From a virus, in IMG/VR virus record IMGVR_UViG_3300003324_000207, positions 1,050 to 32,289 of that record: a stretch of 31,240 nt of DNA; one strand, 5' to 3'. A program made the translations under genes and the position numbers. Positions 2,841 through 31,208 of this stretch are shown here, piece by piece. The number at the start of each line of letters is the position of its first letter. Position 1 is the stretch's first letter. The notes beneath the pieces are model-generated. The model was not told where the DNA came from. It made no database searches and worked only from the letters and a program-made list of their open reading frames with translations.

Positions 2841-2863
2841 ATAACCCGTGTTACGGTTCACCC

Positions 2864-3022
2864 ATGAGATTCGCGGGTATCGTCCTCGGGGCCACCCTGC
2901 TCGTCTGTGGCGTCGTCCTGGCCGCCGCTTCGGTGCTGTACAGCCTCGGCTGGATCGGCTTCCTGCCCGGCCTGGCGATGGGCTTCTACGGCATCAAGCT
3001 GCTACGCGGCGACGAAGGCTAG
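2864..3022 (+). CDS. Small two-helix membrane protein on opposite strand
   Basis: A 52-residue frame on the plus strand starts MRFAGIVLGATLLVCGVVLA and has two hydrophobic segments, about 4-26 and 28-46, separated by a Gly/Trp turn, ending KLLRGDEG. The composition is clearly that of a membrane protein and the third positions are GC-rich, which favours a real gene. No ribosome binding site precedes the ATG, so it may be leaderless or weakly translated. Its TAG stop is within a CTAG shared with the TAG stop of the convergent minus-strand gene. Lying next to the lysis genes, it could be a holin or antiholin-like protein, which is inference. Confidence 0.6.
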   Translation: MRFAGIVLGATLLVCGVVLAAASVLYSLGWIGFLPGLAMGFYGIKLLRGDEG

Positions 3023-3915
3023 CCGTAGGCCGCCTCCCCCTGCTGCGGGTACTGGCTCAGGCCACCGCCCGCGCCCTGCTGCGCGTAGGTGCCCTGCACG
3101 GGGCGACCGTAGAGCGAACTGCGCTGCTGGGCGATGTTCTTGATCTTCTCGATGTCGCTGGTGTAGGCGCCGGGGTTGCCGAGGATCTTGACCAGTTGGG
3201 CCGCGTTGATGCCCTGCTGCTGTAGCTCGGGCAGGTAGCCCTGCAGGTTGCTGCGAACCTCTGAGACGAGCTGGTTCACATCATCGAACGTAGCGGTGGG
3301 CGGCAACACGCCCTTCGACAGAGATGCGGCGTCTTCCTTCGAGAAGCCCAACTGCGACTGGAACTGAGCACCCTCGTACAGGCCAAGGAACCGGTTGTCG
3401 CCCGCCTTCAGCGCCTCCTTGTACGCAGAGTTCGGGGTGACCTTGATGCCCCGCGCCCGCTCCTGCGCCTCGAACGCCGCCTTCAGGGCGGGGTTCGAGT
3501 CCACGATATGCACGGCCGCGAGTCGCTGGCCGAACTCGTCGGGTGAGGTCTGATCCTGGATGAGCTTGGCGAACTGGTCCTTGTTGAAGTTCTTGTACCC
3601 GTACTTCTGGGCGATCTGCTGGTTCTGGTTGAGCGCTGTCCGGTAGTTCTTGATGGCGCCGGCCAACGAGGAAACCGACACGCCCACCCCCTGCTCCCCC
3701 GTCAGTGCGTTGGCGATCGTGCCGCCCTTCTCGATGAGACCGGGGAACTGCCTGCGGAAGTAGTGTGTGTTCACCAGCCGCTCGACGACATCCTGCGTGG
3801 TGAGTTGGCGACGCACGGCCAGGTCGATGAGCTGCCGGATCTCCTGCGTCAGGTCGTTGCCGAAGAGCTGCTTGACCGTGTTCTTGTACTGCTGCCGGTT
3901 CTTCTTGTCTGCCAT
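3019..3915 (-). CDS. Putative internal virion protein
   Basis: The protein has 298 residues. It is rich in Gln, Asn and Ala, mostly helical, with an N-terminal segment QLIDLAVRRQLTTQDVVERL followed by NTHYFRRQFPGLI and a Gln/Gly-rich C-terminus (GTYAQQGAGGGLSQYPQQG). The helix pattern ending in a Tyr/Phe-rich 'YFRRQFPG' motif is reminiscent of putative internal or tape-measure-like proteins of other phages. It follows the giant protein and a Gly/Ser-linker protein at the end of the virion block. I cannot name a family; the structural assignment is from context and composition. Confidence 0.55.
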   Translation of the reverse strand: MADKKNRQQYKNTVKQLFGNDLTQEIRQLIDLAVRRQLTTQDVVERLVNTHYFRRQFPGLIEKGGTIANALTGEQGVGVSVSSLAGAIKNYRTALNQNQQIAQKYGYKNFNKDQFAKLIQDQTSPDEFGQRLAAVHIVDSNPALKAAFEAQERARGIKVTPNSAYKEALKAGDNRFLGLYEGAQFQSQLGFSKEDAASLSKGVLPPTATFDDVNQLVSEVRSNLQGYLPELQQQGINAAQLVKILGNPGAYTSDIEKIKNIAQQRSSLYGRPVQGTYAQQGAGGGLSQYPQQGEAAYG

Positions 3916-3916
3916 G

Positions 3917-4294
3917 TCAGACCGCCGCGATCTGTCGGAGGACCGCGAAAATGCCCTTCGCTTCGTCCTTGTAGGTCTTCGTGTCTTGGAACGCCGTCTT
4001 CATCCGCTCACGGTGGATGAACTCGGTGACGTTCATCCCGGAGTTCGCGGCGGCCTTGACGTATGCCTCGGTGGGCGGCTCGCCCCAGAGCTGGATGTAG
4101 GCAGAGCGGAACAGGGACTCGAGCTGCGCGACGCGCGGGTCTACGGGGGGCGCAGACGGCGTGCTGGAACTCGACGACGAGCTGCCGCTTGAGGACGACC
4201 CTCCGCTCGAGCCGCCGCTGCTGCCGCCCGACGAACCGCCGGAGCCGCCTCCGTTGATGGGCGGCGGGCTAGGGGGTGGTGGCTTGGTAGGCAT
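3917..4294 (-). CDS. Gly/Ser-linker protein, putative virion component
   Basis: The protein has 125 residues in two parts. Residues 1-50 are low-complexity: a proline run (KPPPPSPPPI), repeated GGSSGGSS units, then poly-Ser. Residues 52-125 look folded and helical, beginning VDPRVAQLESLFRSAYIQLW and ending IFAVLRQIAAV. Its ATG overlaps the stop of the giant gene (TGATG), so the two are likely made together. The folded part has the same general layout as the N-terminal region of the next gene (helix, Thr-containing turn, helix with aromatic residues), but I cannot prove homology. Function unknown. Confidence 0.6.
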   Translation of the reverse strand: MPTKPPPPSPPPINGGGSGGSSGGSSGGSSGGSSSSGSSSSSSSTPSAPPVDPRVAQLESLFRSAYIQLWGEPPTEAYVKAAANSGMNVTEFIHRERMKTAFQDTKTYKDEAKGIFAVLRQIAAV

Positions 4295-7200
4295 CAGGAA
4301 CCTCCGAGTCGGTAGTAGGTGTCGGGAACGAGGATGCCGCCGATGATCGGGTCTCCCCCGTTCTGCTCTTGCAGGTCATACCAGGACCGCTTGAACGCGG
4401 GCGAGTCGTCCTGGTAGTACTTCACCCACTGCAACAGCCAATCTTGCTGCGCTCGCCAGCCGGCGACGGCGTCCTTGTCGAACCCGCCCGTGCCGTGGTA
4501 GCGGTCGTTCGCGCGGTTCGCGTCGTCCACGTTCGACTGGATCTTGTCGGCCAGGTCGAAGATGTAGCCCCAGTAGGCGTCCACCTTCTTGTTGTCGCCC
4601 TGGCTCCCGTAGCCTGCCGCGCGCAGGCCGAACGTCCATGAGTTCGTGTTGTCGATGACCCTGGCGAAGTTCTTGTTCCCCTTCGCCCACTGGGCCACCT
4701 GGTTGTCGATGGACTGATAACGCTTCCCGATATCATCGGCCTTCGGGTTCTCCGTCTGGTACTTGGAGATGCCGATGCGCCACTCGGCGATCTGCTCGAG
4801 ATGCTTGACCGACGTGGACGAGAGCTTGACGCCCTGCAGGTGCCAGTCCCAGGCGGAGTAGAACACGGTTGGCTTCGTAGCGAGGTCCGCCATGTATTGC
4901 GCCCGTTCCTTCTGGGTCATGTATCTGTCCCACCACGCCCGCACGACCTTCGGGTTGTTCACGTACTTCTGATCGAAGAACGACTGCGCGTTCTGATAGT
5001 TCTGGTTCTCCTGCCAGGCGTAGTCGTAGTTGCGATCGGCGTTGGACCGGAGATTCTGGTAGTGCGACATCGTGTGGACGACCTCGGTGCGGAGGTCCTG
5101 GGGCAGGTCCATGATGCGCTTGATGTACTGCTGCGGGAGCGTCTGCAACGTGTAGTCCGCGGTGCGAAGCGTGCCGTCCTCGTTCAGCGACGTGCCGAAG
5201 TAGGCGGAGATGAACGGCGCGATACCCGGCGTCTCCTGCTCGAGCTTCGCCGTCTGCTTGCCCAGGCTCGCCATCAGGTCCGGGTCCAGGCTGATGTCCA
5301 CCAGCCCGTCCTTCTTCATCCTCGCTTCGATCTTGTCGCGGATGTCGAGGTACTTTCCGAGGGCCTGGAAGCCGGGGGCGTTCTCGAAGCCCGGCGTGTC
5401 AGCGATCTGTCGCGCCTGCGCGAGCGCGTACCATGCGGGCTTGTCCAGACCATCCGGCCAGGAGTAGACCGCGTTGTCGCCCTCGCCCTTACGCTCGAGG
5501 TGGGTCGCGGCCCAGTTCGGGTACTGGTTGGCGAGGCCCGCCAGGAACTCGCTCCGCTTGGCGATGAGGTCGCGGTAGGCGGGCGAGGACGTGTCGGTGA
5601 TGTTCGAGGCCACCGGGTCCCAGACCGCCCGGTACCAATCGTCCACGACGCTGGAAACCTTGTTGTCCTCCCCCTTGGAGAGGTAGTCGTCCAGCGGCCG
5701 GTACTTCATCAGGCCCTCGGACAAGAGCTTGGAGTACGTGCTGAAGTCCTCGGCCTCGGCGATCTTCGGGTCGATGCCGATGAGCACCAGCCCCGCCCAC
5801 GCCCGGTTGTTCTTCATGAAGTCGCCGATGCCGGGCGTCTTCAAGAGCTGATCCACGAACTGCGACGAGGGGATGCGCGGTGCCTGGATGAACTCACCGT
5901 CCGGCCCCTTGATGCCCGCGTCGTAGAAGGTCTTGCCGACCGTGACGTAAGACAGGTCGGGGTGGCGCTTCGTCCACTCCTTGACCGCGTCAAGGTAGTT
6001 CGGGGAGTTCTCCACCAAGTCCTGCCACTCCGCCTCGTAGGGCGAGGCAGGGGTCTGGATGCGGAGGGCAGCCGGCGAAAGGATCTGCATAAGCGCGCGC
6101 ACCTGCAGCAGCTCGTTCGCGTCCTTCTGCGCCATCGCCGTGAGCTCGTCGATGGAAAGCGGATTGCCGTTCTCGTCCTTGTCCATCCCGTTCACCTGGT
6201 AGGAGCGCAGCAGCGAGTAGGTGAGCGCCTGGCGCTGGGACTCGGGGATGATCGTCGGCATGAACTGGGCGAGCGCCGCCTTCACCGAGGTCGGCAGCAG
6301 GCTCGCCCCGGACTGCGGCCCGTACTGGAACAGGTAGGACGTGACGGGGATGGACTTGGAATCCTTGAGCAAGCCCTGAAGGGCAAGGGCAGCCAGTGGG
6401 TCCATGCCGGGAGCAGGGAGCGGCACGCCACCCACCAGCTTGCCGATGATCGGGGTTTGCCCCGAGAACTTGATGGTCGAAGACGACAGCAGGTTGAACG
6501 AGGCGAGCGGGGCGATGAAGCCGATGCCGAGTTGGTCGAGTCGGTTGTCCTGCCCCCAGCCCTTCTCGCCGCCGATGTCCCCCCACTTGCCGTGCATGAC
6601 GGCCCAGGACGCGCCGGCCAGCCAGCGGAACGCGCCCATCGGGACGACGTACTCCCCCGTCTGCGGGTCCTTCTTGATGAAACCGGAATCTACGCCCGTG
6701 CGGAACAACTGCATCGTGCGCCCCAGCATCTCGGGGTGCCGCATGGCGATAGCGCCCCATGTCTGGAATCCCTCGAAGAACGGCTGCGGGAACGGGAACA
6801 CGATCTGCAGCAACTCGGTGAACCGCGACTGGCGGGTCAGGTCGAACATGACAGAGCGCACCCGCTGCAAAGCGAACTGCGTAGAGGCCACATCGACGGC
6901 GTGGTGGATGCCCGAGGGCAGTACGCGACCCGCTTCGCTCAACGGTTTCCACTCGCGACCCGAGGTCAAAACCTCGATCTTGGATGTCGGGATGGACTTG
7001 AACGTATATTGCGAGCCGGGGAACAGCTCCTCCGGGGTGACACGGCCCACCGCATCGGCCTTGACGCGAAAGGCGATCTTCTCTCCCCCGCCGTGCGCGA
7101 GGCGCTTGGCGTCGTCCAGGCTGTCGGCGAAGAACAGCTTGGGCTCGCGCATCCCGCGGGCGTTGACCGCGCCCTCGCCAAGGGGCCGCGGGCGTAGCCC

Positions 7201-10200
7201 GTTCTCTTGGATCGACTCGATGTTCTCCGGCGGGGAGATGTGGTAGACGTAGCCCTCCGCGTCTCCGACCGCCTGGCGTGGCGTCAGTTCACTGGCCGGC
7301 CGGTCCAGCACCGGCTTGACGATCCCCTCGCGACCCGGCACCCGGAACGTCGGGATGCCATCGACCGTTAGGTCCAGCTTTGGGAACTGATGCTCGAGGT
7401 ATGCGTAGTACGCCTGCTCCGCGCGGCGCTTCATCGCCTTGAAGTAGGGCTGGCGGTTCAGGATCTCCTCGGGACGGGAGACGAAGATCTTGTATAGCCC
7501 GTTGGTGAACTCGTTGCCCCACGTCGCACCGCCGCCCTTGAACACAGCCTCCATGCCGGGGCCGTGGACGATAGGTCGGGCGTCCTTGGCAACGCCGTCC
7601 AGCACTGCCTCGAGGTCTTTGCCGTCCAGCGTCAGGGCGGCCTGGGCCAGCGTCTTGTCGCTCAGCGTGTAGGCGTGCGCGCCGTGTGCGGCGTCGTCGA
7701 ACCAGGTGTCGAACTCCTCGGGCGAGACGCCGATGCGCTTGGTGAGCGTGACGAAGTGATCGTCGTTCGCCCACTGCACCAGCTTCGCCCGCGTGGTGGC
7801 GATGTCGTCGCCGTTGGCGATCGACTCCAATGCGACCTGGCCGGGAGCCGATCCACGCAGTTGCTTCTGCAGCGCCCAGCGCCAGGACTCGAGGTGCCCG
7901 ATGTCCTCGGGGTCTACCGGCCCCCAGCCGCCGGTGAACTTGTACTTGCTGAAGCTCTTCTGCGCGTTCTTCAGGATCTCCTCGGCCTGCTCCGCCTGGC
8001 GCAGCGTTCCGTTCGCCAGGGCGTTTCCCTCGAAGGCGCCGGGCAGCGGGATGGTCTTGGTCTCCTTGCCAAGCTGGAACTCGAGGTTCCCCGCGCCCCG
8101 GTCAGAGAGCTTCTTGGTGATACCGAACCATTCCTGCGCCGCCAGCCGCTCGGTGATGGAGCGAGTGGTGAACATGAACCGGGCGTTCTCGTCGGTCAGG
8201 ATGACGCGCGGGATGTAGCCGGGGCGGGCCACGGTGAGTGCCTTCCAGAACCGCTTGCGCGCATCCCACGCTCCCTCGATCAGGTCCCCGCTCTTGCGGA
8301 TGAACGAGCGCATGTGGCCGGGGTCGATGGCCTTCAGGATCTCGGGGGCGTCCTTCCCGATGGCATTCTTGAAGTGCGTCGCCAGCCTGCGGTCGAGGCC
8401 GAGGTAGTCGCGTATCTCCTTGCGGACCTCGATGGGGTCGATGACGTAGCGGAAGTTCGTGCGTTGCGTCTCCCACAGCGGGGTGGTCACCAGCTTGTTC
8501 GCCTCGTCGCCGGCCGGGACCGACCAGAAGGTCTGCATCCGCTCGTTCTGTGCGCGGATCGGGGAAAACAGCTTGTCCTTCAGCAGCGCCTTGCGCTCGT
8601 CGTCGATGTTGAACTTCCGCAGGATGTAGTCCACGGCCTGCGAGTTCATCTCGTCGATGAGGTGTTCCACCCCGTCTTCATAGCCGTAGCGCATGAGCTT
8701 GCCGTGCTCGAAGAACTCGAAGTAGCCGCGAGACTGCGCTTCGAGAACCTGAGACTGGAACTTGCGAACCGCTCGCTCATCGAACGTCCCCCAGCGGCGG
8801 GCTGCCAGGACGATGTAGTCGTCGGCTTCGTGCATGTTGAGTACGCGACCGGGGTTCACGTTGGGGATCTGCGCGATGCGCTTGCCGATGGCCGAGCCGG
8901 TGAGGGCCTGGCTCGTCTCGGCGCGGCGGATGAGCGAGCGCGGCCCATAGAACCCACCCGCCTTCGGAGCCTCCGGCGTGAACGGGACGTGCAGCACGTT
9001 CTGTCCGCCTTCGGCCAGGTAGTTGCTGAGCGCCTTCGCCGTGGCGTCCTCGTCGGGCAGGATGCCCTTCGCAAGCGCGTCCTGCACCCGCCCACGGGCG
9101 CGGTCGATCCTCGCGTGCGTCGCCCACTCGGCGATGGAACCCTCCGGGCCGAAGCCGACGAAGTGAGCGGTCAGGGCCTCGGAGAAGGCCTGACGCGCCT
9201 CGGGCGTGGGGTTCGGGAACTTCTCGAGGAGCTTCGACCGGACCAGCTTCATGTACTCGTAGTCCAGGGAGCGGGTGACGTTGCGGCCGGGGGTGAGCAG
9301 GTCGAGTTCGCGGAAGTACTTGGTGTTGCCCGCGTAGACAGCGTCGTACAGCTTGTCGGCGAGGCGAGACTTGGGCAGCACGTTGGTCACGTAGTTCTCG
9401 AAGCCGTTCTCCAAGACGTTGCGTATGCCCGCCTCGTCCCTCGCAAGTCGCTCCCCCACCGTCGGCACCTTGAACAGCAGGGACTTCAGGACGGTCGGCT
9501 CTTCGAGGCCCGGCAAGATGCGGGTGGGGAGCGAGAAGCCTTCCTTGGCGATCCCGAACGCCCCGCCCTCGCGCAGCGTGCCCGCGCCGATGATGGCCTC
9601 CTCGCCGCGCAGCACGCGGCCCGCCTTCCCGAGCACGACGGTCGGGTCCACGTACCAGCCCACCGCGAAGTCGAACGCAGTCGAGGTGAACGACGGCAGC
9701 CGGAAGCCGAGGTATCGCTGGGTCACGTTGGAGTAGCCGTTCTCGACCCAGTCGCCCACGTCCTCGCCCTGGTTCAGGCGGGTGATGGCATCGGAGCGGA
9801 GTTGTTGCATGTAGTGCAGCGGCTCGCTCCCGTGTCCCGTTGCCGCGCCCAGCGCCGCGGTAACCGGCGTCTCGATGCCGAAGCCGAGCTCCACCAGGCC
9901 GCGCTCCGTGGCGTACCAGGACTTGCTGCCGACCCAGCCGATCGCCTTCAGTGCCTTGCCGAACGCCGAGTTGTTGAACGCCTCCTGCTCCAACGCCACG
10001 CGGTCGGAGATGGACTGGACCTCGCTCCAATAGTCGGGGCCGTGATCGACCAGGTCGTTGATGGTGAGGGGGCGCACCATGAGCTGATACTGCGAACCCT
10101 GGTCCGAGCGGAGGAACTTGGAGAACTTCTCGTTGATGGCCGTGTTCTCGCCGAAGACCGCATCGGTCACGTCATTGACGGAACGGAACGTCTTACCGTT

Positions 10201-11043
10201 GCGCGTCGCGTCCACCGCGATCCCTAGGACCATCTGGTCGTCCACGCCACTAGATGTGGTGCGCTTGGACGAGTACCACTCAAGCACCCGCTCCACGTTG
10301 TTCTTGAACTTGCTCCGCGACATGCCCTTCTGCGAGGCGAGGAACACCGCCATCGCAACGCCGTCTTGCAGCGGCAGGTTGCCCCCGTACTGCGACAGCG
10401 TCTTCGCCCAGGACGCCACGTCCTCCGCCTTGATGGGCGCGCGGCTCCCGCCGCTGCTGGACGTACGATGCGATTCGCCACGGTAGTTGCGGCTGCCGAG
10501 CGTCAGGTCTTGCTTCCGCTGCTGCATGGCTCCGCGGATCATCGAGGCGATGGCGACGGGGGCGAAGTCGTTCGTGAACCGTTGCGCGTCCTTCAGGCTC
10601 AGCGGCTCTCCCGTGACCGGGTTCTTGTACTTCTTCGGGTCAGACGTGCCGAACACGTACTGCGGCGGCACGTCGAACCTGGTGGCGAAGACCTGGGCCG
10701 TGCGGATGAGTTGCTTCTGGCTCTGCGGCAATCCCGAGAGATACAGGGCCACGTCGGTCGGGAGCGTCGAGCCGGAGTGCTGCTCTAGAAGGCGGAGGTT
10801 CTGGTAGTAGTCGGGCGCAGAGACGATGCCGTAGTCGGTCTTGATCGTCGGCTCCTGCGCCAGCCGGTTCGCACGAAGGAACTCACTTCGGTTCTTGGAA
10901 TCGCTGGACGACGGCGTGTATGTGTACGTATCCGCGCCTGAGGCAGGTGTCTGACCGGAGCCCTGCGCCTGTGCCTGCTCCTGGTTCTTCTTGACCCGCC
11001 GGCGTGCCTGACGCTGGGTGTCGTAGTTCGGATCGAGGGGCAC
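4294..11043 (-). CDS. Giant (2249-residue) virion protein with ART-like segment
   Basis: This is the largest gene of the window, starting at a GTG with GAAGGG upstream. The N-terminus is charged and disordered-looking. Most of the remainder is helical, with hydrophobic Gly/Ala stretches around the middle (WLAGASWAVMHG, LGIGFIAPLASFNLL) that could insert in or cross a membrane. At about residues 1267-1360 a segment starting YVYHISPPENIESIQENGLR, with a later LFFADSLDDAKRLA, resembles the start of ADP-ribosyltransferase or RNA-phosphotransferase folds (YH...I...GL.P). The C-terminal 500 residues are Tyr/Trp/Gln-rich. No lysozyme motif is obvious. Position after the portal suggests an internal ejection protein or tape-measure substitute; this is inference. 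Confidence 0.7.
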   Translation of the reverse strand: MPLDPNYDTQRQARRRVKKNQEQAQAQGSGQTPASGADTYTYTPSSSDSKNRSEFLRANRLAQEPTIKTDYGIVSAPDYYQNLRLLEQHSGSTLPTDVALYLSGLPQSQKQLIRTAQVFATRFDVPPQYVFGTSDPKKYKNPVTGEPLSLKDAQRFTNDFAPVAIASMIRGAMQQRKQDLTLGSRNYRGESHRTSSSGGSRAPIKAEDVASWAKTLSQYGGNLPLQDGVAMAVFLASQKGMSRSKFKNNVERVLEWYSSKRTTSSGVDDQMVLGIAVDATRNGKTFRSVNDVTDAVFGENTAINEKFSKFLRSDQGSQYQLMVRPLTINDLVDHGPDYWSEVQSISDRVALEQEAFNNSAFGKALKAIGWVGSKSWYATERGLVELGFGIETPVTAALGAATGHGSEPLHYMQQLRSDAITRLNQGEDVGDWVENGYSNVTQRYLGFRLPSFTSTAFDFAVGWYVDPTVVLGKAGRVLRGEEAIIGAGTLREGGAFGIAKEGFSLPTRILPGLEEPTVLKSLLFKVPTVGERLARDEAGIRNVLENGFENYVTNVLPKSRLADKLYDAVYAGNTKYFRELDLLTPGRNVTRSLDYEYMKLVRSKLLEKFPNPTPEARQAFSEALTAHFVGFGPEGSIAEWATHARIDRARGRVQDALAKGILPDEDATAKALSNYLAEGGQNVLHVPFTPEAPKAGGFYGPRSLIRRAETSQALTGSAIGKRIAQIPNVNPGRVLNMHEADDYIVLAARRWGTFDERAVRKFQSQVLEAQSRGYFEFFEHGKLMRYGYEDGVEHLIDEMNSQAVDYILRKFNIDDERKALLKDKLFSPIRAQNERMQTFWSVPAGDEANKLVTTPLWETQRTNFRYVIDPIEVRKEIRDYLGLDRRLATHFKNAIGKDAPEILKAIDPGHMRSFIRKSGDLIEGAWDARKRFWKALTVARPGYIPRVILTDENARFMFTTRSITERLAAQEWFGITKKLSDRGAGNLEFQLGKETKTIPLPGAFEGNALANGTLRQAEQAEEILKNAQKSFSKYKFTGGWGPVDPEDIGHLESWRWALQKQLRGSAPGQVALESIANGDDIATTRAKLVQWANDDHFVTLTKRIGVSPEEFDTWFDDAAHGAHAYTLSDKTLAQAALTLDGKDLEAVLDGVAKDARPIVHGPGMEAVFKGGGATWGNEFTNGLYKIFVSRPEEILNRQPYFKAMKRRAEQAYYAYLEHQFPKLDLTVDGIPTFRVPGREGIVKPVLDRPASELTPRQAVGDAEGYVYHISPPENIESIQENGLRPRPLGEGAVNARGMREPKLFFADSLDDAKRLAHGGGEKIAFRVKADAVGRVTPEELFPGSQYTFKSIPTSKIEVLTSGREWKPLSEAGRVLPSGIHHAVDVASTQFALQRVRSVMFDLTRQSRFTELLQIVFPFPQPFFEGFQTWGAIAMRHPEMLGRTMQLFRTGVDSGFIKKDPQTGEYVVPMGAFRWLAGASWAVMHGKWGDIGGEKGWGQDNRLDQLGIGFIAPLASFNLLSSSTIKFSGQTPIIGKLVGGVPLPAPGMDPLAALALQGLLKDSKSIPVTSYLFQYGPQSGASLLPTSVKAALAQFMPTIIPESQRQALTYSLLRSYQVNGMDKDENGNPLSIDELTAMAQKDANELLQVRALMQILSPAALRIQTPASPYEAEWQDLVENSPNYLDAVKEWTKRHPDLSYVTVGKTFYDAGIKGPDGEFIQAPRIPSSQFVDQLLKTPGIGDFMKNNRAWAGLVLIGIDPKIAEAEDFSTYSKLLSEGLMKYRPLDDYLSKGEDNKVSSVVDDWYRAVWDPVASNITDTSSPAYRDLIAKRSEFLAGLANQYPNWAATHLERKGEGDNAVYSWPDGLDKPAWYALAQARQIADTPGFENAPGFQALGKYLDIRDKIEARMKKDGLVDISLDPDLMASLGKQTAKLEQETPGIAPFISAYFGTSLNEDGTLRTADYTLQTLPQQYIKRIMDLPQDLRTEVVHTMSHYQNLRSNADRNYDYAWQENQNYQNAQSFFDQKYVNNPKVVRAWWDRYMTQKERAQYMADLATKPTVFYSAWDWHLQGVKLSSTSVKHLEQIAEWRIGISKYQTENPKADDIGKRYQSIDNQVAQWAKGNKNFARVIDNTNSWTFGLRAAGYGSQGDNKKVDAYWGYIFDLADKIQSNVDDANRANDRYHGTGGFDKDAVAGWRAQQDWLLQWVKYYQDDSPAFKRSWYDLQEQNGGDPIIGGILVPDTYYRLGGS

Positions 11044-15075: not shown

Positions 15076-15404
15076 GAGCTTTCAACCCCCGAGATCGTGA
15101 CCGTCAGCGCGGTACCGGTACCCTGCAGGCCGCGGATGGTTTCGGATGCGCTAACTATCTGCCAGCCGGTCCAGTCATAGGTCCCGTGCGCCGGGATGTT
15201 CACCGCCGACAGGAAGTGCTCCGCGGCAGCTATCGCCGCGCCGGTGTTCAGGCCGATGGTGATAGTTGCATCCGATGCTGTCGTGTTCGCTACGTGGATC
15301 GCGCGAACCGCTGAGACGCCTGCGGCGGCAGCCGTGTAGAGCAGGGTGTCCGACGTTCCGGGCTGTCCCTCGTAGAAGAGCTTCGGGGTATCAAGCGTTG
15401 CCAT
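15072..15404 (-). CDS. Small virion protein
   Basis: The protein has 110 residues beginning MATLDTPKLFYEGQPGTSDT. It is rich in Ala, Thr and Gly with predicted beta strands (AIHVANTTASDATITIGLNT) and a WTGWQIVSASETIRGLQG segment. Small beta proteins of this appearance are common among phage capsid-decoration and tail-fibre accessory proteins. TGATG overlap with the upstream gene and ATGA overlap with the downstream gene. No family can be named with confidence. Confidence 0.6.
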   Translation of the reverse strand: MATLDTPKLFYEGQPGTSDTLLYTAAAAGVSAVRAIHVANTTASDATITIGLNTGAAIAAAEHFLSAVNIPAHGTYDWTGWQIVSASETIRGLQGTGTALTVTISGVESS

Positions 15405-15916
15405 CAGTCACCACCTCGCACCATGAAATCGAGATAGGTCACACTGGCTCCGCCGACGTGCGTGTGGTCGCCGGCAGCCACCTGGCTCGACCCAGTGCCG
15501 ACATCTCCGTTCGCGTCGAGGTTGGAGAATGTCACCGAGCCCGCGTGGGAGGAGCCGGAGTGCGTGGTGTCTACGGTGGGCGAGGCCCATGTGCCGCCGA
15601 GCTCGCCGCCCGGGGAAGTCCCGACGGCGATCTCGTTCGACAGCCCGCTGTCTGCAGTGCCGACCAGATAGTCCACGTCGGTCGGGGCGCCGCTGCCCGT
15701 GCCCGTAACCTCAAGCCAATCCGCCCCGCTCACGTACCACAGAGAAGCATCCTCCACGACGAAGGCCGTGGACCCGTCCTCCGCCGTTGTCGGGTCAGGG
15801 AGTTCGACGAGCGTGTCCACGATGTACTGATCGAGGTCCACCAGGCGCCGCGTGAGCGGGTTGTCGTGCTCGATGGCATCCGCGTCGGTCGGTAGCGAAG
15901 TACGGTAGACCGGCAT
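15404..15916 (-). CDS. Tail-fibre-like protein
   Basis: The protein has 170 residues. Its middle part, LVGTADSGLSNEIAVGTSPG followed by GELGGTWASPTVDTTHSGSS, is a phrase often met in phage fibre proteins, where it forms the shaft. The N-terminus (VYRTSLPTDADAIEHDNPL) may attach to the virion and the C-terminal HTHVGGASVTYLDFMVRGG may be a tip. The ATG overlaps the stop of a short coiled-coil gene (TGATG). Host attachment is a reasonable inference. Confidence 0.7.
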   Translation of the reverse strand: MPVYRTSLPTDADAIEHDNPLTRRLVDLDQYIVDTLVELPDPTTAEDGSTAFVVEDASLWYVSGADWLEVTGTGSGAPTDVDYLVGTADSGLSNEIAVGTSPGGELGGTWASPTVDTTHSGSSHAGSVTFSNLDANGDVGTGSSQVAAGDHTHVGGASVTYLDFMVRGGD

Positions 15917-16089: not shown

Positions 16090-16605
16090 CTACGATGTGG
16101 CGAGGAGGGTCACGCCGAGGACCGGCAGGAAGTTGTTGGTCAGGGTCGCCCATGTGATCGACGACGGCAGCGGGAACGACGACGCAGCCTGGACGGCGCC
16201 CGTCGCTCGAGCGATGCCGACGTTGGCCGCAGTGGCCCGTTGTATCCGAGCTACGGAGGAGTCCGAGGAGGCGGCCAGGTAGTAGATGCCGCGCGAGAGA
16301 GTCCCCGACACGGCTACGCTCTGCTCGTTCGAGCTATCGGCCGTGACGGTACTGCCCGTTGAGGCGACCCGGTGGCCGGTCTCGTCGTAGATCCCCACGT
16401 CCAGGTTGCGGCCGACGATGCTGCCGCTGATCCATAGGAGCCGGGTGAACGCGAAGTCCTCTTCCAGGTACAGCGGCACCCCGATGGCGAGGTTGGCCGA
16501 GGGCCAGTCCACGTTGACCGCCACCGAGAAGCCATAGCCGACGTGCTCATTGCCGATGCCGGCAGGGCCGAGGCTGAGCAGCGTGGCTTGTTGCAGCGGG
16601 CTCAT
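16090..16605 (-). CDS. Fibre/virion surface protein, C-domain paralogue
   Basis: The protein has 171 residues. From about residue 67 it aligns with the C-terminal part of the next upstream protein (16602-17282): NLDVGIYDETGHRVASTGST against NLDIGIYHQSTLAKITSTGS, then SRGIYYLAA against DAGRYVLAF, and SSFPLPSSITWATLTNNFLP against ESAFPLPSTLTLTTIQAARL. The two are therefore paralogous beta domains. This protein lacks the N-terminal GYEWPPINP module of its neighbour. ATGA overlap. A role on the particle surface is inferred. Confidence 0.65.
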   Translation of the reverse strand: MSPLQQATLLSLGPAGIGNEHVGYGFSVAVNVDWPSANLAIGVPLYLEEDFAFTRLLWISGSIVGRNLDVGIYDETGHRVASTGSTVTADSSNEQSVAVSGTLSRGIYYLAASSDSSVARIQRATAANVGIARATGAVQAASSFPLPSSITWATLTNNFLPVLGVTLLATS

Positions 16606-17282
16606 ACGGTCGCCCGAAAGCTCAGACCGAAGACGGGCAGGCGCGCGGCCTGGATCGTCGTCAGCGTCAATGTCGAGGGCAGCGGGAAGGCAGACTCCTG
16701 GATACAGACCCCAGCCGCGTGCATCGTTGCGCCCCCCGCCGTGAACGCAGCGATGTTGCCCGTGGTGTTGTCCATCGCAAAGGCCAGGACATAGCGACCG
16801 GCATCGAGCGGCACGTCGGTCACGTCAACGACCTGAAGGTTCCCCGTTCCAGACTGAGCGGTCGAACCCGTACTGGTGATCTTGGCAAGCGTGCTTTGGT
16901 GGTAGATGCCGATATCCAGGTTCCCTGAGACGCCGGTTGTGCCGTTCGCGATCCAGAAGGAGCGAAGCGTCTTAGCCTCGCGGAGCGTGAATGGGTACGT
17001 GAGGGCACGGTTGGCGGTCTGATGGGTGGAGTTCGCCGTGAGCGTGAAGTTCGAACAAACGAAAGCGATAGCTTCGTCTGCGGCAGGGCCGATGATGAGA
17101 CTGGGGGGGCGTTCGCCGGCCTCCTCCGTAGTGGGGGGGCCGTTCTCGATGATCGTCGTCTCGGAGATGTACTGATACAGGGTCGGGTCGAGGGCCACCG
17201 GGTTGATCGGCGGCCACTCATAACCCGCCCCCCAGCCGGGGAACGCGCGACGACGGCGGAAGTCCAGGCCACCCCCGGTCAT
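16602..17282 (-). CDS. Two-module virion surface protein
   Basis: The protein has 226 residues. Residues 7-45 (DFRRRRAFPGWGAGYEWPPI...) are homologous to the 60-residue protein encoded just upstream; the C-terminal 120 residues are homologous to the protein encoded just downstream. It therefore joins the two modules that its neighbours carry singly. The C-terminal domain is Ser/Thr/Gly-rich and beta-like. ATGA overlaps on both sides mean tight coupling. Likely a fibre or collar protein, by context. Confidence 0.65.
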   Translation of the reverse strand: MTGGGLDFRRRRAFPGWGAGYEWPPINPVALDPTLYQYISETTIIENGPPTTEEAGERPPSLIIGPAADEAIAFVCSNFTLTANSTHQTANRALTYPFTLREAKTLRSFWIANGTTGVSGNLDIGIYHQSTLAKITSTGSTAQSGTGNLQVVDVTDVPLDAGRYVLAFAMDNTTGNIAAFTAGGATMHAAGVCIQESAFPLPSTLTLTTIQAARLPVFGLSFRATV

Positions 17283-17461
17283 CGCACGATCGTCCGCCTC
17301 GAGACGTAGATGTAGACCTGGCCCCTGAGCGGGCCGGGGTTGATGGGCGGGAACTCATAGCCGGGGCCGAAATGCGGGAACGACTTCTGCCTGCGAAAAT
17401 CGAACTTGCCCGACTCGAGGCGGTCTTGATAGTTGTGGAAGCGCGGCCCCGTGTAGATCAT
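17279..17461 (-). CDS. Single-module small protein, anchor-like
   Basis: A 60-residue protein, MIYTGPRFHNYQDRLESGKF followed by DFRRQKSFPHFGPGYEFPPI and ending YVSRRTIVR. It matches the N-terminal module of the next protein (DFRR...FP..G.GYE.PPINP...Y.YIS..TI). Aromatic, Pro and Gly richness suggests an extended peptide that docks onto a partner rather than a globular domain. The overlaps with both neighbours are ATGA. I infer a virion anchor peptide. Confidence 0.65.
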   Translation of the reverse strand: MIYTGPRFHNYQDRLESGKFDFRRQKSFPHFGPGYEFPPINPGPLRGQVYIYVSRRTIVR

Positions 17462-20196
17462 CGCACCGCCCTGAAGGTCAGCACGGCGCGACCCTCGCCG
17501 CTGATGTTGTTCTCGATGCGGATGTCCTCGATGGTGCCGAGGTAGTCATCGCCCGGGCCATCTCGCAGGTAGCCGTCCTTGAACGGTACGACGGCCTTGG
17601 CTCGCCAGACCGAGAACAGGTCCTCTGCCTTGCGCGCGCCGGATTCCTGTTCGTTGGCGATGTGGTCACTCGAGTCCTGGTCTTCGGTACGCACGACCAG
17701 GTCGAAGTACTCTTCATCGTCGGCGGCAGACGCCCACACGGTCAGGCCTCTGAACTTTGGGGTACTCGCACCATCCGAGGTGGATAGGCGCACCCGGACC
17801 TGCAGCGTCGAGAACGTGGTGAGTTCAGGGAAAAAGGTCTGGATCGTGCCGTTGGACTGCGTTCCCGCCAACACCCACGTCCCGCTCTGGTCCACCTGAT
17901 AGAACACCTGCACCTGCGTGTTCGAGGGCATAGTGTCGGTCATCACTTCGATCTTCGCCAGCGCCTTCCGCACCGAAGGGAGGCCGAAGTCGTAGATGCT
18001 GGACGTGTAGCTCGACCCGTCCGCCACCGAGGACTGCCGATACGTCCCCACCGAGCCTGCGACGAAGACCTCCTCGGAGTAGGCGGCGAAGATGCGGCCG
18101 AACAGCACGGCAAGGGCACGGTTGTGGCTGGGTGTCGCGGGCGAGAGTTGGTATTCGAGGAACAGGCCACCACTGACGAGGTCGTAGCGCCACACGTAGT
18201 TGCCTTGCAGCATGTAGATGCTCGTTTGGTACGGCACCATGAACTCCACGGGACGGGGATCGGGGTTGTCGTAGCGGAAGAACCCGATGCGGTTCACGAT
18301 GCCGTTCTGGTCGATGGCGAACAGGGCCGAGCGCGGGAGCTTGTCTGTGTCGCTCGCCGTCGCATCGCCGTAATACTGACCCGCAACGAAGGTGATGCCG
18401 TTCTCGAAACAGACGGCCGTGGCCTGCACGCCGGTGCCCAGGTCCCCGAGCTCGGTCACGGTGATGCCCGTGTCGCTGGTGTCCGCTTGGTAGATCTTGC
18501 CGGTGACGCCGGCATAGTTGATGAAGAACCGGGCGCCCGTGGGCGTGGAACACATGCGCTGGCGCAACGTAGTGTCGGCGGTCTTCGCGCCCGCAGTGAT
18601 CTGCTGGACGTTCACTCCGGTAGACGGCGCGGCGACGTTCAGGTCCCAGGGGTTCGTGCTGGTGTCGTCCAGAGGAACTTCGTAGATGTAAACGCTCGTC
18701 GAGGCGGCGTTGTCCTCTGACATCAGGATGAGGCGATTCTGCGCCACCGCCATGCCGACGAGCGTCTTCGCGCCGGTGGAGAAGTAGGCGAAGCGATCGT
18801 CGGTGCCCCCGCTGGTCGAGGTGTAGACCTCATTGGAGTCCAGCAGGAAGTACTCGAGCGAGTCGGAGTGGGCCATAGCAAGCACGGTCGCATTGGTCGT
18901 GGATGCCCCGTCGTTGAACGTGACGGCGCTGTCCCATACGTCGGTGGACGTGTTGTACGTGAAGCCGCGGGAGTCCGCGCCGGATGCGTGCGCGCCAAGC
19001 CAGACCTTCTGCCCAAGGCCGAAGTCCAAACAGTCGATAGACCAGGCGGCGGCAGACAGCGTCGTCCAGGTCACGGCATCCAGCCAAAGCGCCTGCTTCC
19101 CGTCGGCACGCTTGACACGCGCCTTGTAGTCGGTGGAAGCGGCGGCCTGGAACGAGATGGACCCGACGACCGCGCTCGCGGTCGCGTCCACGTTCACGGT
19201 CTTCGTGGTGAGCGAGGCCGCCCCGGTATCGTCCCAGATCTCGATGGTGGCCGTGTTCCCCGTCACGTCGTTGCCGTACAGGATCTTGTCGAGCGTGACC
19301 TGTACCGGGGTCGGCTCGATGGAGGACGGGATGCCGACCTTGATGCGGTAAACCTTGTTCGCCTTCGGCACCCACGACAGCTCGAGGAACGGCGACGGGG
19401 AAGTGGATTCGAGCGATTCGACCACGCCCACGATCGCGTTGTCGTTGGCGCCGGTCACCTCGATGACCTGGAACCGCACAAGCTGGCCCTTATTCGCGGC
19501 AACCGTGGCGAAGAGCTGCACCTTGGTGGTGTTGTCTGCGATCAGCTCGGTGCCGGTGGAGAGCCGGTCGGACCAGACCACGTCGCCTCGGGTCAGGATC
19601 TTGTCGGTGCCACTCGTCCGAGGCGAGCCGTCCACCTTGTTGAACGCGCTGCCCTGGATGGTCGTCGCGCCAGTAGCGAAGCTTTCGGCGTACATCTTGA
19701 AGTTCACCTGGACGTTTGAGGCGCCGGGGGTGTGGGCCGCGGACTCGCCTACGTAGGTGTTGATCGCCGTCAGGCGGCGGTCGGTGTCATTCGTCGTGGA
19801 CGCCGTGCCAGAGATGTCCGCGAATCCCGCATTGCCCTCGACGGTGGAGCTCGAAGAGGTGGTGCTGACCGTTTCGGACAACACAGACTTGTTCAACGAC
19901 ATCTGGCCGGGAACGCGGAAGTTCAGGCCCTCCGAGCGGTAGAAGCGGAAAGCACTATCCGCGTCGCCCAGGTCCAGGACGACTTGCCCCTCCCCCGCGA
20001 ACTGCGAGAGGTTCCAAACCAGGTAGTCCTCTTTGAGGTTCTGGCTGCCAGGGCGCCCGGTGATGTCGGTGCGCCCGGCGAAGATGGAGCGGCCACCGTG
20101 GACGTAACAGCGGCGACCAGTGAGGTCTTCGTAGCCTTCGTCCAGCCAGTACCGCTTTCCGTTCAGCTCGACGTGATGACCGCCCGGCAGGCTCAT
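17458..20196 (-). CDS. Large tail protein, adhesin or nozzle-like
   Basis: The protein has 912 residues. It begins SLPGGHHVELNGKRYWLDEG. The central part is rich in Thr, Ser, Asp and Gly with repeated strand-turn units such as GKIYQADTSDTGI and ALFAIDQNGIVNRIGFFRY, which resemble beta-propeller blades. Near the C-terminus a LAKIEVMTDTMPSNTQVQVF segment followed by RGLTVWASAADDEEYFDL recalls beta-sandwich domains of tail proteins. It follows the adaptor-like gene with an ATGA overlap, the place where tail-tube or nozzle proteins of short-tailed phages usually lie. Which of nozzle, baseplate or adhesin it is cannot be settled here. Confidence 0.65.
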   Translation of the reverse strand: MSLPGGHHVELNGKRYWLDEGYEDLTGRRCYVHGGRSIFAGRTDITGRPGSQNLKEDYLVWNLSQFAGEGQVVLDLGDADSAFRFYRSEGLNFRVPGQMSLNKSVLSETVSTTSSSSTVEGNAGFADISGTASTTNDTDRRLTAINTYVGESAAHTPGASNVQVNFKMYAESFATGATTIQGSAFNKVDGSPRTSGTDKILTRGDVVWSDRLSTGTELIADNTTKVQLFATVAANKGQLVRFQVIEVTGANDNAIVGVVESLESTSPSPFLELSWVPKANKVYRIKVGIPSSIEPTPVQVTLDKILYGNDVTGNTATIEIWDDTGAASLTTKTVNVDATASAVVGSISFQAAASTDYKARVKRADGKQALWLDAVTWTTLSAAAWSIDCLDFGLGQKVWLGAHASGADSRGFTYNTSTDVWDSAVTFNDGASTTNATVLAMAHSDSLEYFLLDSNEVYTSTSGGTDDRFAYFSTGAKTLVGMAVAQNRLILMSEDNAASTSVYIYEVPLDDTSTNPWDLNVAAPSTGVNVQQITAGAKTADTTLRQRMCSTPTGARFFINYAGVTGKIYQADTSDTGITVTELGDLGTGVQATAVCFENGITFVAGQYYGDATASDTDKLPRSALFAIDQNGIVNRIGFFRYDNPDPRPVEFMVPYQTSIYMLQGNYVWRYDLVSGGLFLEYQLSPATPSHNRALAVLFGRIFAAYSEEVFVAGSVGTYRQSSVADGSSYTSSIYDFGLPSVRKALAKIEVMTDTMPSNTQVQVFYQVDQSGTWVLAGTQSNGTIQTFFPELTTFSTLQVRVRLSTSDGASTPKFRGLTVWASAADDEEYFDLVVRTEDQDSSDHIANEQESGARKAEDLFSVWRAKAVVPFKDGYLRDGPGDDYLGTIEDIRIENNISGEGRAVLTFRAVR

Positions 20197-23848: not shown

Positions 23849-24694
23849 CTACGCGGCCGACTTCAGGGTTTGACCACGGGTGTCCGAGATCTCCACGAAG
23901 CCGTAGCACTGCGTCCCGACGAACTCGAGCGCACGCAGCGAGGCATCCCGCTGGGTCTCGATGCGCGGACCCCAGATCTCGTAGCAGCCGAGCGCCTGCT
24001 TGCTGGCGAACACGGCCCCACCGACGAGCGAAGAGGTCGTGACGACGAGCGAGGTCTGCCAGATCGGCAGGCCCATGACGGTCCCGAACATGCCCGAGTC
24101 ACCGAACGGACGAACGAGGCCGTTGCTGGCGTCGCCCACCTGGTACGAGGCACCAGTGGTGGCGATGTCCACGCGGAGCTCGCCGGTCTGCTTCGGGTCG
24201 AGATAGCCCACGTAGGGGCCGGGGATGTCGCGCTGCTCGAGCGCCGAGACCGCGGCGAGCACGTCCACCTGCGTCAGCGTGGAAGCGGCCGTGGTGACGT
24301 TCGAGAAGTCGTCCATCAGCGCAGCGAGGTCGGTCTCCCACTTCTCGGCGACCGAACGCCCGACCATACCAGCGACCTCGGCGTAGAGGTCACCGGGATG
24401 GGTCTCGCGGATCAGGTCCGACACGTCCACACGGAAGCCAACCTCGGCCGCCGTCGCGGACTGCTGCGTGTCAGACAGGGCGGTGTTGGAGATGTCGGTG
24501 ATGTCGTCGGACGGAGCCGTCGCCGCACCGGGGTCACCCCACAACGGGAACGAAGCGACGGTGGACGGGCCACCCGTCGCGAAACGCAGGAACTCGCGCG
24601 AGGTCATCGCGGGACGAAGCTCCTGCACCATCTGCGCCTCGACGATCTCCGCGAAGACAGAGTCGTCCAAGGCAGCCTTGCCGGTACCTGCCAC
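23849..24694 (-). CDS. Major capsid protein
   Basis: The protein has 281 residues from a GTG with GGAGG eight bases upstream. The layout follows HK97-fold capsid proteins: a helical N-terminus (FAEIVEAQMVQELRPAMTSR), an extended arm with TVASFPLWGDP, a long helix with DLYAEVAGMVGRSVAEKWET, a peripheral domain containing LEQRDIPGPYVGYLDPKQ, and a C-terminal strand region (FASKQALGCYEIWGPRIETQ). It is directly downstream of a scaffold-like gene, the expected neighbour. The length is near the short end for the family. I did not find a maturation protease. Confidence 0.85.
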   Translation of the reverse strand: MAGTGKAALDDSVFAEIVEAQMVQELRPAMTSREFLRFATGGPSTVASFPLWGDPGAATAPSDDITDISNTALSDTQQSATAAEVGFRVDVSDLIRETHPGDLYAEVAGMVGRSVAEKWETDLAALMDDFSNVTTAASTLTQVDVLAAVSALEQRDIPGPYVGYLDPKQTGELRVDIATTGASYQVGDASNGLVRPFGDSGMFGTVMGLPIWQTSLVVTTSSLVGGAVFASKQALGCYEIWGPRIETQRDASLRALEFVGTQCYGFVEISDTRGQTLKSAA

Positions 24695-29553: not shown

Positions 29554-29709
29554 TTACAGCTCGACCTGAACGTCGCCTACGTCTTTGAGGTGTATCGGGC
29601 GGCGCTGTCTAGACAGCTCGGGGGACCGACGTTCATGGCGCGCCTCAACGTCTCGGCGGTATTGCCCCCATGCTCTTACCTCAGCCGAATCGGCCCGAAC
29701 ACTCATCAT
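29554..29709 (-). CDS. Small basic protein with conserved DVGDVQVEL tail
   Basis: A 51-residue protein, MMSVRADSAEVRAWGQYRRD and then a basic Arg/Glu-rich stretch, ending PIHLKDVGDVQVEL. The ATG overlaps the stop of the upstream gene (TAATG). The nine last residues are identical to the C-terminus of the protein at 29870-30148, but eight of nine codons differ, always in the third base, so the peptide is kept by selection. This is the best evidence that this short frame is a real gene. Function unknown; the tail may bind a common partner. Confidence 0.65.
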   Translation of the reverse strand: MMSVRADSAEVRAWGQYRRDVEARHERRSPELSRQRRPIHLKDVGDVQVEL

Positions 29710-29873
29710 TAGTAGCAGGAACACCGACGCGCTTCGCGTTCGCCGTCGTCGCATAGCGGGCACTGGTCGATGCAGTAGATGTGCAAGCATCGGACGTGCT
29801 CATGCGGTGGGACCCGCACGGTTCCGTCCACCATGTAGTCCACGTAGTTGCCGCAAGACGTGTGATAGCTCAT
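29709..29873 (-). CDS. Small Cys/His-rich protein
   Basis: A 54-residue protein, MSYHTSCGNYVDYMVDGTVR and onward, with seven cysteines (7, 29, 34, 38, 41, 51, 53) and several histidines, including CIDQCPLC and the CSCY end. One or two zinc sites are likely. ATGA and TAATG overlaps tie it between the two genes that share the DVGDVQVEL tail. No family recognised. Confidence 0.65.
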   Translation of the reverse strand: MSYHTSCGNYVDYMVDGTVRVPPHEHVRCLHIYCIDQCPLCDDGEREARRCSCY

Positions 29874-30148
29874 AGCTCTACTTGTACATCTCCGACATCC
29901 ACCTTCCAAACTACGGTGTCGCCTTCGAGGATGATGCCACCGATCGTGCCGGAGCCGCCCACGATGCTTACTTCGCTGCCTCGGCCCATGTCCTCGCGCT
30001 TCAGGAGCTCTGCGGTCTGTTCTGCCGGCAAGAGCACCTTGCGTACGTGACTGAGGCTCAGTGCTCCGTCCTTGGGCTTTCTGATCTTCGGTGGTTGGAA
30101 CAGCTCTAGTTGCTCGAGCTTCACGATCTCTGCTTCTTGTGCGCTCAT
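29870..30148 (-). CDS. Small protein with QLELF clamp-type motif and DVGDVQVEL tail
   Basis: A 92-residue protein starting MSAQEAEIVKLEQLELFQPP. Gln13-Leu-Glu-Leu-Phe17 fits the QL-x-LF pentapeptide by which many bacterial and phage proteins bind the DNA polymerase sliding clamp. The middle is basic and helical (RKVLLPAEQTAELLKREDMG), followed by a beta-like Gly-rich part (GSEVSIVGGSGTIGGIILEG) and the DVGDVQVEL tail. AAGGAGG precedes the ATG, which overlaps the upstream stop. Clamp binding is a hypothesis from the motif; a short peptide can match by chance. Confidence 0.7.
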   Translation of the reverse strand: MSAQEAEIVKLEQLELFQPPKIRKPKDGALSLSHVRKVLLPAEQTAELLKREDMGRGSEVSIVGGSGTIGGIILEGDTVVWKVDVGDVQVEL

Positions 30149-30366
30149 GACGCCTCCTTGGGCTTAGGCTTGTCAAAGCCGGTGTATCGCTTCGTGTTGT
30201 CTCGGCGCTGCACGTCTGAGTACATCTGACCGACCATCCACCAGATAGCCCAGAGCTGGTTCTTGTCGTACTTCTCAAGCCGCGAAAGCTCTGCTTCCTC
30301 GTAAAGGGCCTTCTTCTGTTCGACGGACAGATAGACGAGACCGCCTTCCTCCTTGGGCTTGGTCAC
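30145..30366 (-). CDS. Hypothetical small protein
   Basis: A 73-residue protein from a GTG that overlaps the WhiB stop (GTGA), with GGAGG five bases upstream; a longer in-frame start has poorer support. Helical and charged, with VYLSVEQKKALYEEAELSRL and a Trp-rich NQLWAIWWMVGQMY. The last residues KPKPKEAS are partly written by the ribosome site of the next gene. No family recognised. Confidence 0.65.
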   Translation of the reverse strand: MTKPKEEGGLVYLSVEQKKALYEEAELSRLEKYDKNQLWAIWWMVGQMYSDVQRRDNTKRYTGFDKPKPKEAS

Positions 30367-30869
30367 GATGCCTCCAACAACTCGTCGGCCCATTCGTCCA
30401 CGGGCTTACACCCGCGACACTGGGGGATGATGCACTCGCCCTCGTCGTTCAGGGCTGCGTGCTTTATCCGCTTGGCGTGTCGCTCGTGGGGCAGGAATCC
30501 TCCCCAGATCCCCACGGGCGGGGTGAAGGATGCGGTGAACGGCTTGGTCTCGAGGAACACCTTGTTGCTGGCTCGCTTCCAGTGCCTCGTCTTGGTGCAG
30601 CCAGGGGGGCAGGTGTCGTCGTGCTCCTTGCGTGGGTTCGGCGCCCAGTCGCTTCGGATCATGGTTGCCACGCCGAGCTCGATCGCGCTCGCCCGTTCCA
30701 TGCTGAGCGCATAGACCAGACACTCCCTGCGTACCGGGCAGCCGGCGCAGACCCGTCGTCCTGTTGCCCAGGCCCAGGGTTCATCCCTTGAGCCGGGGTC
30801 CTTGAAGAACAGGGATTGCGGGTAGCTGTGACATGCCGCTCGTTCCGCCCATGACTGGTCGTACTGCAC
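30363..30869 (-). CDS. WhiB-like iron-sulfur regulator with insertion
   Basis: The protein has 168 residues from a GTG that touches the upstream stop; a GGGGAGGG ribosome site lies in the upstream gene's end. The four iron-sulfur ligands of WhiB proteins are present: Cys13 (AACHS), then Cys41, Cys44 and Cys50 (CAGCPVRREC). The GIWGG turn follows at 120-124, then FLPHERHAKRIKH. In ordinary WhiB proteins the turn comes about 15-20 residues after the last cysteine; here about 70 residues intervene and include CPPGC. A further ECIIPQCRGC near the C-terminus adds three cysteines. WhiB proteins occur only in actinobacteria and their phages and bind the main sigma factor. Confidence 0.88.
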   Translation of the reverse strand: MQYDQSWAERAACHSYPQSLFFKDPGSRDEPWAWATGRRVCAGCPVRRECLVYALSMERASAIELGVATMIRSDWAPNPRKEHDDTCPPGCTKTRHWKRASNKVFLETKPFTASFTPPVGIWGGFLPHERHAKRIKHAALNDEGECIIPQCRGCKPVDEWADELLEAS

Positions 30870-31208
30870 CTACTTCGATCCCTCCCCTGTCTCTGGGGTG
30901 GCCGATTGAGATATGCTGGATAGCGTTAGCGACCCGCGCAGCCTTTGCGCACCTTCGAACGCCGCCATGATGCGCTCGCGCCCGACAGGATTCGCGGAGT
31001 GACAATCCATCCGCCAGGGCAGCAGGGCGGGATGCATCTCCAACCACGCAGCAACCTCGTAGCCATCACGCCCGTCGCCAAGGTCGTGGTCGAGTGAAAG
31101 CTCGGTCACCCAGCCTGTCCGCAGCACGTCGATGGCAGCAGCAGCGGACCTCGCCACGATCCATGACGTGTCAGGCGGCTCCCTCATGTCGTCAACCCAC
31201 AGCTTCAT
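30870..31208 (-). CDS. cREC-type receiver-like protein
   Basis: A 112-residue protein, MKLWVDDMREPPDTSWIVAR and onward. The double Asp (VDDMRE, 6-7), LSLDHDLG (38-44), a DGYEVAAWLE helix (48-57) and CHSANPVGRERI (69-80) match the cyclic-phosphate processing receiver family (cREC), proposed to act on cyclic phosphate ends of RNA. The C-terminal 20 residues look disordered and encode the ribosome site of the WhiB gene. If the family role holds, it could belong to RNA repair or to nucleotide signalling; no ligase or kinase partner is seen within the window. Confidence 0.8.
   Translation of the reverse strand: MKLWVDDMREPPDTSWIVARSAAAAIDVLRTGWVTELSLDHDLGDGRDGYEVAAWLEMHPALLPWRMDCHSANPVGRERIMAAFEGAQRLRGSLTLSSISQSATPETGEGSK
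30884..30901. repeat. 18-base direct repeat, copy 1
   Basis: CCCCTGTCTCTGGGGTGG occurs here and at 31216-31233. On the minus strand each copy supplies GACAGGGG just before a gene start (WhiB here). The sequence also contains a CCCC/GGGG inverted repeat. Confidence 0.7.

Follow-up and report, generated by a model that had tools for sequence, protein, structure and literature searches.

Two neighboring minus-strand reading frames, at 29870-30148 and 29554-29709, end in the same nine residues, DVGDVQVEL, and, by comparison of their codons, the two tails are homologous. The window, as we call the whole 31,240-nucleotide stretch analyzed here, comprises bases 1050-32289 of a 32,289-base IMG/VR virus record, an uncultivated assembly. 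We posit, with about as much reason for belief as for doubt, that 29554 carries the 3′ end of a second, diverged gene of the 29870 family, orphaned at a mosaic junction. According to this proposal, DVGDVQVEL would be the C-terminal end, half strand and half protruding, of a small conserved family represented by 29870-30148, and the second copy of the tail (29554-29583) would come from another, long-diverged family member. At the end of the gene string, recombination or deletion would have (i) taken out all of this second gene except its last nine or so codons and (ii) fused those to unrelated DNA behind a Cys-rich gene; the silent third-base differences would go back to a period when each copy was still a complete gene selected at the protein level. 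That a complete second copy once existed and that its end was joined in this way is what we infer; the evidence from which we do so is set out below.

Two tails in a string of short genes

The short genes on the minus strand run toward the terminase, with stop/start overlaps that are, in order along the string, ATGA, ATGA, and TAATG:

30363-30869, minus strand: WhiB-like gene, head of the short-gene string
30145-30393, minus strand: 82-aa gene, upstream of the 92-aa gene in the same string; ATGA overlap with the ATG of the 29870 gene
29870-30148, minus strand: 92-aa early/middle phage protein of an unnamed family; ends DVGDVQVEL-TGA; strong coding score, Shine-Dalgarno (SD) sequence, and an ortholog
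29870-29899, minus strand: tail copy A, DVGDVQVEL-stop; its terminal CTATGA overlaps the ATG of the next gene
29709-29873, minus strand: 54-aa Cys-rich protein (ORF); 4-base ATGA overlap with the 29870 gene
29554-29709, minus strand: 51-codon frame, MMSVRADS...LKDVGDVQVEL; start overlaps the Cys-rich stop at TAATG; whether the body is a gene is doubtful
29554-29583, minus strand: tail copy B, DVGDVQVEL-TAA; lacks an overlapping downstream start codon
29189-29553, minus strand: intergenic region before the HTH/terminase operon; sigma-70-like promoter at 29223-29195; counterpart at about 4933-5331 of the relative L012

The terminase and portal proteins are distantly similar (about 23-24%) to those of Streptomyces podoviruses, e.g., Immanuel3 and Manuel, which, together with the WhiB gene, suggests an actinobacterial host. 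A cyclic-phosphate-processing receiver domain (cREC_REC, E 2e-25) at 30870-31208 adjoins the WhiB-like gene. Elsewhere, a 2249-aa virion-sized protein (4294-11043) takes up more than one-fifth of the contig and has counterparts about 28-33% identical in the relatives L004 and L020; another relative, L016, has two separate matches (16293-16436 and 17234-17656) to the 15404-15916 protein, suggestive of a repeated structural gene or domain. Pfam, PHROGs, and NCBIfam hold no family for the 29870, 29554, or Cys-rich proteins, and ARAGORN and Rfam gave no match to a tmRNA or known structured RNA at the locus.

Copy A reads GAT GTC GGA GAT GTA CAA GTA GAG CTA TGA (29899 to 29870) and copy B reads GAC GTA GGC GAC GTT CAG GTC GAG CTG TAA (29583 to 29554), where the tail runs into TAAAAC. 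As the preliminary description had recorded, the two minus-strand frames share all nine last residues while eight of nine codons differ, every difference being synonymous and in base 3, and a Cys-rich ORF lies between them; its statement that the two proteins are otherwise dissimilar was borne out by our comparison. Were the eight mismatches placed at random in the 27 bases, all would land on third positions with P = 4e-6. This restriction to third positions implies selection on the protein, in the same frame and in both copies, for at least most of the time since they split. Judged from sequence, the similarity thus acts at the protein level and does not stem from a recent DNA duplication; the earlier argument that duplication of DNA alone is insufficient and that the peptide is conserved gains from the silent pattern and from the ortholog described below, which ends EVADLQVEL-stop.

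Of the 555 frames that end in a stop and have 30 codons or more, this is the only pair with a nine-residue C-terminal match, the longest shared C-terminus in 300 codon-block shuffles was 7, and the shared C-terminus in eight relative loci reached at most 7/9. Dinucleotide shuffles of the window never yielded two matches to the degenerate pattern, and a given pair of unrelated frames would have the tail in common with a probability of about 2e-11. The exact degenerate tail with its stop has no other occurrence in IMG/VR viral contigs or GTDB genomes. A relaxed pattern found a sole IMG/VR match, L006:1136-1165 (DVGDVVVDL-stop), which has earlier stops in frame and unrelated-looking surroundings and is probably due to chance. 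A DNA-level element is ruled out by the third-base pattern, as is coding on the opposite strand, where a stop also interrupts the opposite frame of copy A.

The 92-residue protein and its ortholog

Neither the 29870 nor the 29554 protein gave a match when searched directly in INPHARED and IMG/VR, and scans with the terminase and portal found only L004, whose contig ends before the locus; an initial six-frame DNA comparison with L004, overwhelmed by weak, linked matches, is excluded from the evidence. The major capsid protein (23849-24694), used in a further scan, brought up 11 relatives, of which only L012, a moderately close 27.8-kb contig, covers the locus. L004 and L012/L020 are two contigs of one metagenome (3300025936_000195 and _000203) with complementary gene sets, probably parts of one phage genome of ~42 kb.

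L012 contains an ortholog of 29870 at 3287-3553, with 51% identity over 81 residues. The ortholog ends VCWTCEVADLQVEL-stop, and the window protein ends VVWKVDVGDVQVEL-stop; in this one homolog, the tail is EVADLQVEL, with 6/9 residues identical to DVGDVQVEL. This ending marks the 29870 tail as the end of a conserved domain, and the alignment shows the C-terminus to be under selection at the protein level. Third positions of tail A and the ortholog tail diverge at 8/9, exactly as those of A and B do, so the lineage of B would be at least about as old as the orthologous lineage, and B would not be a recent duplicate. Between the WhiB gene and the ortholog, L012 has an HNH endonuclease (2856-3290) at the place of the window's 82-aa gene (30145-30393).

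The 29870 gene has a strong coding score and an SD sequence of -11.4 kcal/mol. A single-sequence AlphaFold model was useless (pLDDT 41). The two-sequence model predicts a strand-helix-strand-strand-strand arrangement at a mean pLDDT of 54 (core about 70), in which the last strand, residues 78-88, includes DVGDV, and QVEL is poorly ordered (pLDDT <50 against that mean of 54). In this model, the last strand of the small, conserved domain runs on into the tail. A Foldseek search of the model against PDB and BFVD returned nothing meaningful, and a sequence search of PDB gave spurious matches only.

Part of the conservation may serve the neighbor. In both full genes, the next start codon sits over Leu-stop (CTATGA in the window, CTGTGA in L012), and the L012 Gln-Val is encoded by CAGGTGG, which is SD-like and at normal spacing. 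Because the last codons overlap the next start and include this SD-like sequence in L012, QVEL-stop in 29870 may be conserved partly for translation of the neighboring gene, a constraint that does not apply to copy B.

Downstream of the ortholog, L012 has a small Cys-containing ORF with a GTGA overlap at the place of the window's Cys-rich ORF; no sequence similarity between the two was found. The 29554 frame is absent from L012, which has one tail only in the whole record, and its slot is taken there by a CAP-domain gene and several small ORFs, so tail B stands where gene content differs between relatives. The gene in this slot of the small-gene string, L012:3734-4099, belongs to the CAP superfamily (Pfam CAP, E 5e-12). 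Next come a comparable intergenic region, which has a promoter of the TTGACT type, and a gene with the same AGGAGGCCAACCC-ATG context as in the window, where the true start of the 28745-29188 gene is probably 29152, preceded by a perfect AGGAGG. Of the two outcomes that the preliminary description had named as counting against its reading, the absence of the 29554 frame from a relative was thus observed, and loss of the tail from a homolog was not.

Origin of the 51-codon frame

Expression of 29554 as a protein is doubtful on its codon statistics and its start. At -0.208 per codon, the frame has a synonymous-codon score lower than that of 99.4% of gene windows; the body alone (29584-29709) scores -0.269, and tail B scores +0.026. 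The start at 29709 lacks an SD sequence (-3.0 kcal/mol), and the Arg-rich body has no homolog in phages (INPHARED) or IMG/VR. The sole support for 29554 as a gene is the TAATG in which its start overlaps the Cys-rich stop. Upstream of tail B, no frame showed a trace of homology to 29870, so a frameshifted 29870 pseudogene is unsupported. The orphan 3′ end accounts for the tail, the missing coding signature, and the position. Homology is confined to part of an intact gene, its last nine codons; the sequence joined to it lacks a coding signature; and gene content at this place differs between relatives. Several observations count against an orphan end: B keeps all nine residues, in exact match to the resident 29870, whereas the ortholog differs at 3/9; the 29554 start overlaps the Cys-rich stop, an arrangement known from coupled genes; in both full genes, the tail is followed by an overlapping start (xTGA), which tail B does not have; and no intact source gene is seen elsewhere, neither a phage with the proposed full-length second copy nor a full gene ending DVGDVQVEL-TAA in the viral and genome collections or the L012 record.

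The strongest alternative, for which a minority but substantial case can be made, is that 29554-29709 encodes a genuine 50-aa protein, made by ribosomes that terminate at the end of the Cys-rich gene and reinitiate, with a tail shared with 29870 for binding one partner. It draws on the retention of 9/9 residues through eight silent changes exactly at both C-termini, on the TAATG overlap of a frame that comes last in a series of overlapping genes, and on tail B being closer to the resident tail than the ortholog tail is; a functional shared tail explains this perfect resident match and the coupled start better than an orphan 3′ end does. Against a 50-aa protein stand body codon usage outside the gene range, the start without an SD sequence, the Arg-rich body without homologs, the absence of the frame from the single-tailed L012 contig, and the finding of nothing comparable in the phage collection. 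In a variant of this alternative, the small protein would pair with, compete with, or regulate 29870 by supplying the same edge strand. That a 50-aa protein conserved only in its neighbor's C-terminal peptide binds the same partner or the neighbor's edge strand, as a competitor or co-assembler, is a tentative and rather unlikely extension. The preliminary description had read the tail as free and conserved between unlike proteins; a free tail in a pair of established proteins is not supported: the segment continues the last strand of the 29870 domain in the model, and the 29554 body lacks a coding signature. For these reasons, and because 29554 is absent from L012, docking or tagging is now less favored than an orphan 3′ end.

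It is improbable that the tail serves both proteins as a C-terminal tag for degradation or a signal to a protease. The tail is short, exactly C-terminal, and hydrophobic at its end (VEL), with QVEL kept in the ortholog, but the model places this segment of 29870 in the last strand, and 29554 is doubtful as a gene. To our knowledge, no actinobacterial degron with the sequence DVGDVQVEL has been described.

Two further explanations have very little probability, even less than a degradation tag. If the end of 29870 were conserved mainly because it also contains the next gene's start codon and ribosome-binding site, the peptide would be incidental; the CTATGA and CTGTGA overlaps and the SD-like CAGGTGG fit this, but copy B has no overlapping start, DNA identity is lost at 8/9 third bases, and identity in all nine codons via silent changes would go unexplained. 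As a full explanation, the overlap is refuted, though some of the conservation of QVEL-stop in the full gene may be due to it. An assembly chimera of two strains, similarly remote, would make tail B the true 3′ end of another strain's 29870 gene; the contig is an uncultivated IMG/VR assembly, and tail B is followed by the intergenic region leading to the next operon, but assemblers join on shared words, and the best exact word of the 29554 body elsewhere is 14-15 bases. Chance identity of the tails is negligible, given the per-pair probability and the shuffles, in which it was never reached.

The 29870-type protein represents a small unnamed phage family, whose C-terminal selection at the protein level is now shown by the ortholog. 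If 29554 is expressed, it would offer a clear case of two unlike phage proteins with a common docking peptide, and a host or phage partner could be sought directly with DVGDVQVEL as bait. If it is an orphan 3′ end, a silently diverged short match can be the fossil of a lost gene copy and not a motif.

Comparison with known systems

Encapsulin cargo-loading peptides and the T4 capsid targeting sequence are short terminal peptides found in unlike, often neighboring, genes. The window genes show no sign of encoding capsid cargo and lie in the string with the WhiB gene, upstream of the terminase operon. The conserved nine-residue C-terminus of SSB (MDFDDDIPF in Escherichia coli) docks to a partner (PMC11947617), and the window tail, for which docking was proposed, has the same length and position. 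The SSB tail is acidic, ends a disordered linker, and is conserved across bacteria, whereas the window tail continues a predicted strand and has been seen in one homolog. Mosaicism is documented in temperate lambdoid phages (PMC2327257). Although the window piece differs from gene fragments at phage mosaic junctions in that no donor full copy was found and in being an exact in-frame C-terminus with its stop, it resembles them in kind: a short piece of a known family that adjoins a site of differing gene content.
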